From a virus, in the IMG/VR virus record IMGVR_UViG_3300045978_000115, positions 1-32,666 of that record: a stretch of 32,666 nucleotides of DNA. One strand, written 5' to 3'. A program made the translations under genes and the position numbers. Of the stretch, positions 1 to 5,711 are shown piece after piece; position 1 is the stretch's first letter; each line of letters opens with the position of its first letter. The notes below the pieces were generated by a model. The model did no database searches and was not told the DNA's origin. It worked only from the letters and a program-made list of their open reading frames with translations.

Positions 1-20
1 AAGGAGGCCTGGGAGGACTT

Positions 21-1370
21 GTGCGATCTCCGGTACTCTGTGAGCTGTGGGGAATGACCCTCGTTAGAGACATCCCCGCCTGCCGTGGTTGCCCTCATTA
101 CCAAGACGGCAGCCAGCCCTTCGTCCCTGACGAGCCCCCAGGTGCCCCCATCGTCATCATGATGCAGAATCCTGGAGCCACTGAAGAGCGTGAGGGGAAG
201 CCAGCGGTCGGGGACACAGGGAGGGTGTTGAACAGCGTCTACCTCCCCAAGGCAGGCCTCCACCGTGACGGGGTGCAGGTGTGCAATGCTCTCCGGTGCA
301 GGGTTGCTGGGAGGAATGAGCTTCCTCCCTTGAATCTTCTCTCTACGCGAGCGGCCCTGGCTCACTGCAACACGACCCACTTCTCCCCTAATCCAGATGC
401 CAAGCTCTACGTGGCCATGGGTGCCTATGCCCTGTACTTTCTGACGGGTGAGGGTATTGGGCCTCGTCATACCATCAGCTCGTGGCGAGGGTGGCTGCTA
501 CCGTGGGGAGTCCCCTATGAGCCGTTGACTCGCCTCTATCATCCAGAGCCCGGTAAGCCCAGCGTCTTCGCCACCATGCATCTGGCAGCCCTGGTCCATG
601 ACCCTGGTCTCAAGATTGCTCTGTCGGCTGACTGGCAGCGCATCGGGCGCTATCTGCGGGGCACCTGGCCCGAGAGGTTGCCTGTCTATCATGTCGGGCC
701 TCCTGTACATCTCCCGACCATCTGTACGTTTGACACCGAATACGATATCGACACAGGGGAGCTGTACCGCTACTCGATGCACGATGGCGAGCAGACCTGG
801 GTGGTGGAGGCCTCAGAGACCGGTCCCTTGCCCTATCAAGAGGGGTCCACGGTCATCCTCCAGAATGCAGATGCTGACCTGGACACCCTGTCCACCGTTG
901 TCCCCCTACAGGCTGTCAGAACCGAAGACACCATGCTGGCTGACTCGGTTCTGTGGAGCGGGTTGCCCCATGATCTCGAATATCTCGGAAGTCTGTATGC
1001 TCGACTTAACCGATGGAAACATCTCTATCAGGCCAGCCCTCTTGACTACTCGGCGGCTGATGCAGTCGCTACCTGGGATGTCTGGCAGGCTTTATCACGT
1101 CAGTTTGCAGCTGACCCAGGGAGCTGGCGGGTCTACGATTCATATGTCCGCCCACTCACTCCCATCATCCGGCGAGCTGTCCAGCGCGGCACCAGACTTA
1201 ATCAAGAGCGAGTCAGAGCCGCTCTCACCGAACTCATTGGATACCGAGACCGAGCAAGTCAAATAGGCCAGGCGGCTGTGGGCTGGCCAATCAATCTAGG
1301 GTCACCGCAGCAGGTGTCCAAAGAGCTGTTTGAGACGAGGCGCATCAGGGTGCCAAGGAGGAATGCATGA
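21..1370 (+). CDS. UDG-like domain fused to DNA polymerase 3'-5' exonuclease (N-terminal half of a split family-A polymerase)
   Basis: Residues 1-200 resemble family-4 uracil-DNA glycosylases. An NPGATEEREGKP motif lies near residue 50, and four cysteines (C21, C24, C93, C116) are placed like the Fe-S ligands of that family. Residues 230-360 are a DnaQ-like exonuclease: ExoI FDTE (D238, E240), an ExoII-like segment NADADLD (282-288), and ExoIII Y343-x3-D347. Residues 375-440 match the start of the PolI thumb (INLGSPQQVSKELFE). The frame then stops where palm and fingers should follow, and those are encoded from 1570. The GTG start has GGGAGG four bases upstream; a later ATG at 54 would lose C7 only. 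Likely role is proofreading and perhaps uracil recognition during phage DNA replication. Glycosylase activity is uncertain because motif A differs from the canonical GEGPG form. Confidence 0.85.
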   Translation: MRSPVLCELWGMTLVRDIPACRGCPHYQDGSQPFVPDEPPGAPIVIMMQNPGATEEREGKPAVGDTGRVLNSVYLPKAGLHRDGVQVCNALRCRVAGRNELPPLNLLSTRAALAHCNTTHFSPNPDAKLYVAMGAYALYFLTGEGIGPRHTISSWRGWLLPWGVPYEPLTRLYHPEPGKPSVFATMHLAALVHDPGLKIALSADWQRIGRYLRGTWPERLPVYHVGPPVHLPTICTFDTEYDIDTGELYRYSMHDGEQTWVVEASETGPLPYQEGSTVILQNADADLDTLSTVVPLQAVRTEDTMLADSVLWSGLPHDLEYLGSLYARLNRWKHLYQASPLDYSAADAVATWDVWQALSRQFAADPGSWRVYDSYVRPLTPIIRRAVQRGTRLNQERVRAALTELIGYRDRASQIGQAAVGWPINLGSPQQVSKELFETRRIRVPRRNA

Positions 1371-1573
1371 TGATGAGGACAGAATACTCCTCCACAAGCA
1401 GTGAGGGGTATAAGCTGAGTGTCTGGTTCACTGAGGATGGTGAGTGTGCTGTGTTCAGCATCAGTGGGGGTGGGTGTGGGAGTGCAGATATCGATGTGTC
1501 TCGTGAAGACTTCGAGGCACTGTGCAACTTGAGGTACACGCTACCTCCTCAAGAGCCCCCACCTGCAGAGTGA
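1367..1573 (+). CDS. Small unknown protein (68 aa) lying between the two halves of the DNA polymerase
   Basis: Its ATG overlaps the stop of the upstream exonuclease gene (ATGA) and its TGA overlaps the GTG start of the polymerase gene (GTGA), so all three genes look translationally coupled. A perfect AAGGAGG lies at 1355-1361, five bases before the ATG, which makes translation likely. The product reads as an ordinary small acidic globular protein (YKLSVWFTEDGECAVFSISG, then DIDVSREDFEALCNL). No homing-endonuclease motif is visible. No function is recognised. It sits where an uninterrupted polymerase would encode the thumb loop. Confidence 0.7.
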   Translation: MMMRTEYSSTSSEGYKLSVWFTEDGECAVFSISGGGCGSADIDVSREDFEALCNLRYTLPPQEPPPAE

Positions 1574-2631
1574 GAAGCGTAGATGCCGACACCATGCGTC
1601 GCATCCTCTCGGTCTCCCAAGACCCCTTGGCCGAGGCCAGACTCAAGTTCTCGGAAGTGGAATCGTTTCGGAAGTACCTTAGCCCCCTTGTTGGTAAAGA
1701 GCGGTGTCACAGCTCTATGCTTCCTACCCAAGCCTCGGGGCGCTGGTCGACCACCAACCCGCCCAAGGTGAACTTTCCAGATGACAAGAAGGCGGAAGAG
1801 TATGACCTACCGGAACTCCAAAGTGTGTTCATGCCCGACCCTGGATATTGGTGGCTGGGCTGGGACCATGATGCGATTGAGGCTCGGCTGGGGACGGCAT
1901 ACTGTGGGGATAAGCTTGATCTGGAGTCGTTCGCTAATGGGTGGGACATTCACACTCTCACTGCGTGTGATCTATTTACCTTGCCCCTGCCGCCTTCCAA
2001 GCTGGAACAAGACATTCATAGTAAGTCCCCCACTCCCACTATGGCTGCTTGGCAAGCACAGGTGAAGTGGGGCGGCAAGGGAGACCGCAGGCGTCACCTG
2101 GCCAAGACAGCCCGGTATGCCCTCACGTATGGCGAGGATGAGAAGGCCTGCACCACGGCTAAAGGGGTCGAGAAGCTGGGGCTCAGTAAGCAAGAGCTGC
2201 TGGATGCTGGTCGACGGTTCCTCAGGGCCAAGGCCAAGACCCTTGTCATCTGGAAGAAGATCACCTGGGCCGAGTGCATCCGTACCAAGATGGCCCGCAC
2301 ATTCCTCGGGAGAAGGCGGATGCTCTTTGGTCCTGACCATCATGTGAAGAAAGAGGGTTTGAACCACATGATCCAGGGCGCGGTGGCTGACGTGATGAAT
2401 GCCAACCTCATCAGTCTGCTGGGCCCTGGGGGCATGTTGGAGCAGTGGGGGACCTTGGAGCTGAATGCCCATGACGGGGCCCGCATCGCTCTCCCTGTTT
2501 CCATTGATCTCGGAATCCTCCCCTATGTGCGAGCCATCGTAGAAAGGGAATGGGATGTTCAAGGGAATCGGATGCGCTTTCCCGCAACCTTCTACTGGAT
2601 CGATGACCAGGGGGTGAAGGCAGGGCTATGA
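1570..2631 (+). CDS. Family-A DNA polymerase, palm and fingers domain (C-terminal half of a split polymerase)
   Basis: This is the DNA-synthesising half of a PolI-type replicative polymerase. From the GTG at 1570 (353 aa) it shows SGRWSTTNPP (residues 56-65; the TGRLSS-NPNLQN region), motif A WDHDAIEAR (D99, E104), motif B RRHLAKTARYALTYG (R175, K179, Y183, Y187, G188), LNHMIQGAVADV (N265, Q269) and motif C NAHDGARIAL (H301, D302). Y183 aligns with E. coli PolI F762. Motif C reads HDG rather than the usual HDE. An earlier in-frame GTG at 1522 would add 16 residues, but the GTGA overlap at 1570 fits the operon better. It must act with the upstream UDG/exonuclease protein to reconstitute a proofreading polymerase. 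Identification is firm, and the working quaternary arrangement is inferred. Confidence 0.92.
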   Translation: MRSVDADTMRRILSVSQDPLAEARLKFSEVESFRKYLSPLVGKERCHSSMLPTQASGRWSTTNPPKVNFPDDKKAEEYDLPELQSVFMPDPGYWWLGWDHDAIEARLGTAYCGDKLDLESFANGWDIHTLTACDLFTLPLPPSKLEQDIHSKSPTPTMAAWQAQVKWGGKGDRRRHLAKTARYALTYGEDEKACTTAKGVEKLGLSKQELLDAGRRFLRAKAKTLVIWKKITWAECIRTKMARTFLGRRRMLFGPDHHVKKEGLNHMIQGAVADVMNANLISLLGPGGMLEQWGTLELNAHDGARIALPVSIDLGILPYVRAIVEREWDVQGNRMRFPATFYWIDDQGVKAGL

Positions 2632-2945
2632 GAACACTCATGATGGCAGCAATCCTCTTGACAGCAACCTCAGCCATGGCCGCTAGTGACGGGGAGAAGT
2701 TCAAGCAAAAGATTGAGAACACCGTACGACCTTCTCCCCTGTGCTACTGCATCGATGCCAGTGGGGTTAAGCGGGTGGGGGTCATCATCCCTTCGTACTC
2801 AGCCATCGGGGGAGGGGGCAACCTCTTCGTCTACGTCACCTGCGGCATCCCTCGCTTCCAGTGGCTCCCGGACAACACTATCGGGGATGAAGTGGGCAAT
2901 GAGTTTGAGGTGCAGTGTGGCAACTTTGAGAGGCTGACCAAGTAA
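2628..2945 (+). CDS. Small secreted protein, unknown function
   Basis: A 105-aa protein that overlaps the polymerase stop codon by ATGA. The N-terminus MRTLMMAAILLTATSAMAAS is a classic Sec signal peptide with predicted cleavage after the AMA at residues 17-19. That leaves a mature protein of about 85 residues with three cysteines (the CYC pair, a later CG and QCGN), so one disulfide is possible. The mature part is rich in beta-type sequence (VGVIIPSYSAIGGGGNLFVYVTCG). It is probably exported to the periplasm or outside the cell during infection. No family is recognised. A gene for an exported protein directly behind the polymerase is unusual. Confidence 0.75.
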   Translation: MRTLMMAAILLTATSAMAASDGEKFKQKIENTVRPSPLCYCIDASGVKRVGVIIPSYSAIGGGGNLFVYVTCGIPRFQWLPDNTIGDEVGNEFEVQCGNFERLTK

Positions 2946-3191
2946 ATGGGTCGCACCAGCAAGACCGTCAAGTTTATCTTCCACAGCTCCCTGCGTCACA
3001 GCTCTGAGGTGGAGGAGTTGGAGGCCAAGGGGCACACTGTGTGCCAGATGACCGATGAGCAGGAGCAGCACATGTTTCTGGGCCCCAACTGTTGGCGCAT
3101 GACCCTCAGTCAGATCGCCTACCTGGACCTGGCACTCAAGGAAGCTCGCAAGAGCATGTACCCCAAAGAGGCTCATGACAATGATGCCTAG
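2946..3191 (+). CDS. Small unknown protein (81 aa)
   Basis: The ATG directly follows the TAA of the upstream gene, continuing the compact operon. The protein starts basic (MGRTSKTVKFIFHSSLRHSS) and contains EVEELEAKGHTVCQM followed by FLGPNCWRMTL. This reads like a small alpha/beta fold with a conserved-looking Asn-Cys-Trp motif. No catalytic motif or membrane segment is recognised. It is probably a cytoplasmic early accessory protein; the function is unknown. Confidence 0.65.
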   Translation: MGRTSKTVKFIFHSSLRHSSEVEELEAKGHTVCQMTDEQEQHMFLGPNCWRMTLSQIAYLDLALKEARKSMYPKEAHDNDA

Positions 3192-3312
3192 ACTTCGCGC
3201 GCTGGTCGACCTGACTCTTGTTGCCTGTGCCTTGACCGTCACCATCGTCGTGGTGGCCAAGGTCGTGAGTGATCCTGCTCCCATCACCATTGTGTGTCCC
3301 AGTCATGAATGA
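3181..3312 (+). CDS. Very small single-span membrane protein (43 aa)
   Basis: A 43-codon frame overlaps the end of the upstream gene by 11 bases and the start of the downstream gene by 8 bases (ATGAATGA). That is the spacing pattern seen throughout this operon, and the frame fills an otherwise uncoded stretch. The product MMPRLRALVDLTLVACALTV and the following TIVVVAKVV form one hydrophobic segment (about residues 8-29), with arginines at the N-terminus and a short polar tail ending CPSHE. It would be a single-span inner-membrane peptide with a cytoplasmic N-terminus. There is no strong ribosome-binding site. Confidence 0.5.
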   Translation: MMPRLRALVDLTLVACALTVTIVVVAKVVSDPAPITIVCPSHE

Positions 3313-3526
3313 GATTCACTTCAACGTCATCACCAAAGACGGCTCCACCTACACCCTCTCAGCCATCGATATCCTGACAGCCTACGTCACCAACATCATG
3401 CGCTTGTCCATGGACCCGGAGTCAGCCCAGATGCCCCTCCGGGAGTCTGCTATACGCGCAGAGGAAGCCCTGCACTGGCTCAATATCGCGACCAAGGTCT
3501 TGAATATGCCTGATGCCCCTGCCTAG
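3305..3526 (+). CDS. Small unknown protein (73 aa)
   Basis: The start is set at the ATG at 3305 (MNEIHFNVITKDGSTYTLSA) because it overlaps the upstream stop in the ATGA style of the operon. An earlier in-frame start at 3269 would run through the upstream small gene. The sequence suggests a short beta hairpin followed by two helices (IDILTAYVTNIMRL and ESAIRAEEALHWLNIATKVL). No motif gives a function. Confidence 0.65.
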   Translation: MNEIHFNVITKDGSTYTLSAIDILTAYVTNIMRLSMDPESAQMPLRESAIRAEEALHWLNIATKVLNMPDAPA

Positions 3527-3537
3527 GAGAGCCTGTC

Positions 3538-3864
3538 ATGACGCATCAAGAGCGAATTGAGAAGTATGGAGAGTCGAGTCTGTATGCCCCCCGCCGAGCC
3601 GACAACAGGGTGAAGTGGACCCTGGAGACGGTGGCTCGGTTTGTTGATCGCTGGGATCACGGGATGCCGGTCATCGAGCTGGCTAGGGTCTTTGACCTGA
3701 AGAACCCCCGCTCAGTCCGCAACATCGTGCGCTGGTTGCGGGGGAAAGGCATTGAGCTGGCCCAGCGGGAGCCTGGCCCTGACATAGGGTGGGAGACAGG
3801 GGGTTATGCGGAGTCTTCGGTCTACAAGCGTAACGGGAAGTATATCCGCCAGTGGAGGCCATGA
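3538..3864 (+). CDS. Putative helix-turn-helix DNA-binding protein
   Basis: A 108-aa basic protein starting 12 bases after the upstream stop, with GGAGAGCC about four bases before its ATG. Residues about 30-70 read as a helix-turn-helix of the kind in small phage regulators and resolvase-like N-termini: TLETVARFVDRW, then VIELARVFDL, then PRSVRNIVRWLRGKGIEL, the likely recognition helix. The C-terminal 35 residues are charged and unstructured. It probably binds DNA as a regulator of this operon or of host genes. The family assignment rests only on the helix pattern. Confidence 0.6.
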   Translation: MTHQERIEKYGESSLYAPRRADNRVKWTLETVARFVDRWDHGMPVIELARVFDLKNPRSVRNIVRWLRGKGIELAQREPGPDIGWETGGYAESSVYKRNGKYIRQWRP

Positions 3865-4115
3865 CATGCATCTGTGGGGGGCTGCTGTACAGCGTCAACA
3901 TTGTCTTCAACTCAGGCTTCGGGGATCAGGTCCCCAGTTCCCCATGGTGTTCTCGGGAGTGTCTCGATGAGAAGGAAGAAGGCTACTGGCGGCACTGGGG
4001 TGCCATCAACCGAGCCCTCTGTGATTATGTCCACCGGCAGAAGGTCCCCGATGTCGTGGCCGGTGTCGCTCAGCATGTGCCCATGTTGTGGTATGGCGAA
4101 GACCCAAGTGATTAG
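3861..4115 (+). CDS. Small cysteine-rich protein, possible zinc finger
   Basis: The ATG at 3861 overlaps the upstream TGA (ATGA). The 84-aa product begins MTCICGGLLYSV and has a second Cys pair region WCSREC about 30 residues later, giving a CxC...CxxxC arrangement able to bind one zinc. The remainder (YWRHWGAINRALCDYVHRQ) looks helical. No function is recognised. It is the first of several small Cys-rich proteins in this stretch. Confidence 0.6.
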   Translation: MTCICGGLLYSVNIVFNSGFGDQVPSSPWCSRECLDEKEEGYWRHWGAINRALCDYVHRQKVPDVVAGVAQHVPMLWYGEDPSD

Positions 4116-4997: not shown

Positions 4998-5711
4998 ATG
5001 CTGTGGGCAATAGCCTCTGACTTCCAGTGCCCTTTCTGGGACATGTGGGCGGTGGACTTGTTCCTGGAGACCTGTTCAGCCCGCAAGGTTGATGGGGTCA
5101 TCCTCGATGGTGACATCTTGGACTGCCCCCAGTTCTCAGACTTCGACAGGGACCCTCGCCGAGCCACCCGCTTCACCCATGACATTGAGCGGGTGTGCAA
5201 TGAGCTGTTGAAGCCCTTGCACGGGGTCAAGAGGCTGATCTGGATCGATGGCAACCATGAAGACAGGCTGCTCAAGTACCTCGTGAGGAAGGCCCCTGAG
5301 CTGCTGGAGACCCACCCCACCATCCCTGACATGCTGGGTCTGGATGACATTGGCTGGGACTATCTGCCCTACAAGGACTACTACAAGCTGGGCCACCTGA
5401 TCGTGACTCATGGCCAGACGTACCGCTCAGGTGTCCTGGCCTCTGTACGGGCAGAGATGCAGCGGTACGGGGGCTCAGTCTTGATGGGCCACACCCACAG
5501 GCTCGGGATGTTCTACCACACCGACCTGAGGGGCCCCCATGTGGGCTGTGAGAATGGACACATGAGTGACGTGAATCAGTTGACCTGGATCAAGCATCCT
5601 GATTGGCAGCAGGGCTTCTCTCTGGTCAAGGTCGAATCGAATGGTCTCTTCCACATTCAGCAGCTTCCCCTGTTGGGGGAGCGCAGAAGCAAGCGGGTGG
5701 TGATGCTATGA
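4998..5711 (+). CDS. Calcineurin-like metallophosphoesterase
   Basis: This 237-aa protein has the full motif series of the metallophosphatase superfamily: SDFQ (D8, with Q10 where His is usual), LDGDILD (G38-D39), DGNHEDR (N86, H87), VTHGQ (H138) and MGHTHR (H165, H167). These would bind a two-metal centre and hydrolyse a phosphoester, perhaps a nucleotide or nucleic-acid end. The substrate cannot be inferred. The His-to-Gln change in the first motif is common in phage members of the family, so it is probably active. It starts immediately after the upstream stop and overlaps the next gene by ATGA. Confidence 0.88.
   Translation: MLWAIASDFQCPFWDMWAVDLFLETCSARKVDGVILDGDILDCPQFSDFDRDPRRATRFTHDIERVCNELLKPLHGVKRLIWIDGNHEDRLLKYLVRKAPELLETHPTIPDMLGLDDIGWDYLPYKDYYKLGHLIVTHGQTYRSGVLASVRAEMQRYGGSVLMGHTHRLGMFYHTDLRGPHVGCENGHMSDVNQLTWIKHPDWQQGFSLVKVESNGLFHIQQLPLLGERRSKRVVML

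Follow-up and report, generated by a model that had tools for sequence, protein, structure and literature searches.

A phage family-A DNA polymerase encoded by two genes: a split in the thumb that most likely predates the small gene between the halves

How does a phage come to make its DNA polymerase from two genes with a third, small gene lodged between them? The question is raised by a viral stretch of 32,666 nucleotides (IMG/VR record IMGVR_UViG_3300045978_000115, positions 1 to 32,666; the window, hereafter), in which the gene of a family-A (PolI-type) polymerase stops within the thumb, is followed by a 68-codon gene and resumes in another reading frame. A first-pass annotation had read this as one gene opened by the small gene. 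We consider it very probable that the polymerase is encoded in two genes by virtue of an old, inherited split in a loop of the thumb, which the small gene did not cause. The genes and domains concerned are the following.

54..1370, + strand: first polymerase gene (P0001), encoding a uracil-DNA glycosylase (UDG), a 3'-5' exonuclease and the first thumb helices (Pfam, PHROG, kept residues)
132..605, + strand: uracil-DNA glycosylase domain (Pfam PF03167, residues 38-195 of P0001)
732..1103, + strand: 3'-5' exonuclease domain (FDTEY ... NADADL ... YSAADA)
1134..1361, + strand: first part of the thumb, as far as the split (...INLGSPQQVSKELFETRRIRVPRR; alignments with fused relatives)
1355..1361, + strand: Shine-Dalgarno sequence AAGGAGG of the small gene (-10.0 kcal/mol)
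1367..1573, + strand: 68-codon small gene between the polymerase halves (ATGA overlap at its start, GTGA at its end)
1570..2631, + strand: second polymerase gene, with the remaining thumb, palm and fingers (Pfam, fold, motifs)
1..57, + strand: 71-codon upstream small gene (P0005), 3' end only; the complete gene lies at L008:12800-13015

Each of the three genes occupies a different reading frame. The first gene product ends in ...GSPQQVSKELFETRRIRVPRRNA, with its stop at 1368-1370 and three tandem stops (TGA-TGA-TGA) in its frame at this end. The small gene has the AAGGAGG (1355-1361) 5 nt ahead of its ATG at 1367 and overlaps its neighbours through ATGA (1367-1370) and GTGA (1570-1573), as first annotated. 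The second polymerase gene begins at GTG 1570 with (M)RSVDADTMRRIL and extends to 2631. Because this GTG has no Shine-Dalgarno sequence, the gene probably relies on ribosomes that re-initiate once the middle gene has been translated; an upstream GTG at 1522 is an alternative start. The first polymerase gene most likely starts at ATG 54, given the ATGA overlap (54-57) with the stop of another small gene, whose start lies to the left of the window, and homologues beginning M..P..C.GCP; its ORF stays open further upstream. No promoter or terminator was found inside the insert. The 68-codon ORF looks coding: in codon usage it scores +0.02 per codon, whereas the other frames score -0.47 and -0.53, and shuffles average -0.43 (sd 0.15).

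Profile searches and modelling assigned distinct activities to the two halves. The first gene matched Pfam UDG (6.3e-8) and PHROG 17, DNA polymerase (3.1e-10). It carries a 3'-5' exonuclease with the D/E, D and Y/D motifs, for which the Pfam score (DNA_pol_A_exo1, 7.6e-4) fell under the Pfam cut-off. The second gene matched Pfam DNA_pol_A (1.6e-18) and contains the D of motif A (1864-1866), the K of motif B (2104-2106) and the HD of motif C (2470-2475). Modelled alone, its product gave a good PolI palm and fingers (pLDDT 82), and the fold matched PolI large fragments with an E value of about 1e-13, so that motifs A, B and C of a family-A polymerase lie in a palm/fingers fold. ORFs, Pfam matches and codon usage thus agree with the annotated view of a family-A polymerase made as two proteins whose genes are separated by a genuine small gene. 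The division into a proofreading and a synthesis part was also recovered, but the first gene holds a uracil-DNA glycosylase in addition.

The catalytic residues of the exonuclease (D,E; D; Y,D) and of the polymerase (D,E; R,K,Y; HD) were kept in 12/12 split members, that is, the window and the eleven similarly split relatives described below. Both halves therefore look functional as judged from the residues examined. Two inactive fragments would not remain so conserved, and the product is likely a two-subunit enzyme. The kept residues, together with precedents such as the split NrdA of phage Aeh1, suggest that the halves presumably assemble. Two stops and frame changes within one ancestral gene might instead point to a pseudogene in decay, its role taken over by another polymerase, of the host or otherwise. 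We regard this as very unlikely, since both activities are preserved in members that are mostly only 25-50% identical to the window, codon usage is normal in both halves and the start/stop overlaps are tidy. Two further positions vary within the polymerase domain. In place of the Glu that follows HD in motif C, the window has G and its relatives have S, G, A or R. The position equivalent to E. coli PolI Phe762 is Tyr in 11/12 split members, among them the window (2116-2118), and in most fused ones; the exceptions are Phe in L045 and L016 and Leu in L061.

To place the cut, the fused relative L013 was modelled with AlphaFold (mean pLDDT 73); the model matched PolI large fragments. The cut fell in the loop that joins helix 423-433 to helix 450-459, and a long helix (489-511) comes next. 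The helices flanking the cut are, we take it from established knowledge of PolI, thumb helices. The thumb is therefore shared out between both products, and the second gene retains its remainder. The first gene had rightly been said to stop in the thumb; the site is not the loop just before the palm, as proposed, but one between two thumb helices.

Polymerase and exonuclease profiles run against viral contigs recovered both uninterrupted and split relatives. Eight carry exonuclease and polymerase in one frame (L003, L013, L014, L029, L012, L021, L061 and L016), the uninterrupted version that the first-pass annotation suggested looking for. The glycosylase is part of the same ORF in L003 (MW202742, 815 aa), L013 and L014 (about 802 aa) and L029 (870 aa), is a separate ORF in L012, L021 and L061, and was not found in the stretch fetched for L016. 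L003, from an uncultured phage of Manatee Spring, has the same domains in the same order as the window and is 29-30% identical over both halves, but encodes UDG, exonuclease and PolA as one gene. No relative of the polymerase was confirmed in genome contigs, and window positions 1-4000 had no match to phage records at the DNA level.

The same-loop split was found in 12 members: the window, L011, L019, L020, L033, L035, L036, L045, L047, L048, L049 and L058. Half of them (6/12) have no room for an insert: the halves overlap by 38 bp in L058, 56 bp in L045, 31 bp in L033 and 1 bp in L011, and are separated by 4 bp in L049 and 17 bp in L020. The gaps of the others measure 199 bp (window), 281 bp (L047), 1031 bp (L048), 492 bp (L019), 143 bp (L035) and 136 bp (L036). 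They contain a 68-codon ORF in L047, two small ORFs in L048, one of 102 codons in L019, a hydrophobic-rich one of 47 codons in L035 and a doubtful one of 38 codons in L036. Both ORFs of the polymerase are conserved and jointly span one ancestral polymerase, as in a naturally split, two-gene polymerase.

This comparison also bears on whether the interruption is real. The window is a metagenome contig, a source in which a sequencing or assembly error might break one frame. The odds of this are negligible: eleven relatives are cut at the same place, 200 bp of coding-like sequence are beyond the reach of base-call error, and a separate contig, G001 (45,580 bp), is 100% identical across the polymerase region. 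G001 differs at 16/5,581 positions near its far end and is thus a distinct assembly. The ends of G001 (L008:1-783 and L009:4799-5581) repeat each other in direct orientation, with 88.5% identity across about 785 bp; they may be terminal repeats that have diverged, or the genome may be circular and have been closed across a variable region.

Alternatively, a self-splicing intron, or a ribosome bypass or shift, could yield one full-length polymerase. Phage polymerase genes often carry group I introns. The authors describing the split gene of phage MEP401 considered one (PMC10580990). Here an Rfam search returned no group I or II intron family at E values up to 10, so the intron fold that the annotation proposed to look for did not appear. 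The RNA fold of the insert was not unusual (z -1.4), three tandem TGA codons close the first frame, and relatives free of an insert are also split, in differing relative frames. We hold this explanation to be very improbable. The relative reading frame of the halves is 0, 1 or 2 among split members, which excludes one conserved programmed frameshift.

The order of events was addressed with a maximum-likelihood tree from which the junction columns and most of the glycosylase were left out. The 12 split rows formed one clade (92/91) and the fused rows another (100/99), with the window inside a clade of six split rows (97/97). By tree path its nearest relatives were L058, L049 and L011, all split in the same loop and all devoid of an insert. 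Because these three lack the insert and the split relatives form one clade, the split is most likely older than the small-gene insertion. The claim that the small gene opened an intact polymerase gene in the window lineage fits the junction sequences, which flank the insert closely, and the existence of uninterrupted relatives. There is precedent in other phage genes that homing endonucleases have split (PMC2988022), and the glycosylase part of L012 holds an endonuclease VII-type gene. Against it stand the insert-free splits of the nearest relatives and a split clade that needs just one change, together with an insert that has no endonuclease match and no flanking direct repeats; we judge it very unlikely. 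Insertion of a homing endonuclease was likewise discarded, as Pfam and PHROG detected no HNH, GIY-YIG or LAGLIDADG nuclease in the insert.

Several points weigh against an old split that preceded the insert. A tree with two independent splits was not rejected (AU p 0.265, 0.228), and a single origin of the split is therefore favoured rather than proven. With one split or two, the simplest reading is that the subclade of the window was already split without an insert; the later arrival of the insert is an argument from parsimony. The L013 model used to place the cut draws on 7 sequences and is unreliable over the first 168 residues. The assembly of the halves is something we infer, and the kinship of the insert with its upstream neighbour, considered next, rests on about 39 aligned residues.

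Where, then, did the small gene come from? Its product matched no Pfam family, and its sole PHROG match was at chance level (E 0.48). A search of phage records and viral contigs, together with eleven records that included its own, recovered as relatives only the protein itself and the product of the 71-codon gene upstream of the first polymerase half. The Smith-Waterman (SW) score of these two proteins was 54 versus 22.5 (sd 4.2) for shuffles, of which 1/5000 scored as high, and their C-terminal parts align (DVSREDFEALCNLRY with WLSKEAWEDLCDLRY). One protein of this two-member family is thus encoded ahead of each polymerase half. The similarity of the insert to this neighbour (z 7.8) exceeded that of the inserts of different split members among themselves (z at most 2.9), which by sequence have no clear mutual kinship. 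Just left of the window, G001 contains duplicated stretches among small genes, 77-82% identical (12096-12163/12362-12429 and 12472-12574/12687-12788). With such repeats in the nearby upstream DNA, an origin of the small gene by local duplication is plausible. By default, we read the small proteins as accessory cargo. It is improbable that these paralogues, each read immediately before a polymerase half via a stop/start overlap, act in the enzyme itself, for instance by chaperoning it, by bridging the divided thumb or by regulating the balance of its subunits.

Collectively, the data are consistent with the following course. An ancestral one-frame UDG-exonuclease-polymerase gene was probably converted by a frameshift or a new internal start into two overlapping genes, a stage that may still be visible in L058, L045 and L033. 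The two polypeptides would together reconstitute the thumb and act as a heterodimer. The boundary would later have acquired unrelated small genes, separately in several lineages, and in the window phage it may have taken a copy of the small gene already present upstream of the first half. The resulting chain (small gene, UDG/exonuclease half, small gene copy, polymerase half) would be translated in series through its stop/start overlaps, if these couple translation.

Split polymerases as such are already known. In OM43 phages MEP401 and MEP402 (OP830906/7), PolA is divided over two genes that flank a small one (PMC10580990), and the first gene carries the exonuclease there as in the window. 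Their cut, unlike that in the window, lies just before motif A (gp13 ends TGRLSSSSPNLQNFDGEIKTLF..., gp15 begins MILNADAKALEW), no glycosylase domain is reported, the genes are 1 bp apart and non-overlapping, and gp14 is unrelated to the window insert. A split of the MEP401 type was therefore discarded for the window, where the split lies in the thumb. Aeromonas T4-like phages 44RR and 25 also make a replicative polymerase as two polypeptides, gp43A and gp43B (PMC2988022). Unlike the window enzyme, this one belongs to family B, and its insert either encodes a seg endonuclease or is a spacer that is not translated. According to the same review, the phage 25 gene may already have been split when the endonuclease invaded it (PMC2988022), the same order of split and insert as argued here. 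Free-standing homing endonucleases split phage genes in Aeh1 (nrdA/mobE) and T4 (gene 60/mobA) (PMC2988022). There too, a gene lies inside a coding region, and the Aeh1 NrdA halves assemble; the window insert, in contrast, has no endonuclease domain, and the window split looks older than its insert. In the literature searched, which covered few subscription papers, no description of a PolA that is split in the thumb and fused to a glycosylase was found.

A lasting two-subunit family-A polymerase of this kind would be cut through the thumb that grips DNA rather than between domains, in at least 12 diverged phages, and its uninterrupted sister genes permit direct comparison. It makes testable how a replicative polymerase tolerates such a cut or exploits it, for example by separate dosage of proofreading and synthesis or by exchangeable subunits, and it offers a natural template for split polymerases. 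The locus also illustrates that a gene sitting in a gap need not have made the gap.

Among the relatives there is a second recurrent break point. In L012 a recombination endonuclease VII-type gene (L012:2381-2752; PF02945, 2.2e-17) directly follows a truncated glycosylase ORF with an ATGA overlap and precedes the exonuclease-polymerase; in L061 and L021/L037 the separate glycosylase ORF ends near the same place. Near the polymerase, the window encodes a metallo-phosphoesterase (4998-5711; PHROG 221, 1e-37). A similar-looking ORF follows the polymerase in L012 (5116-5895), and MEP401 gp20 is annotated as a calcineurin-like phosphoesterase.
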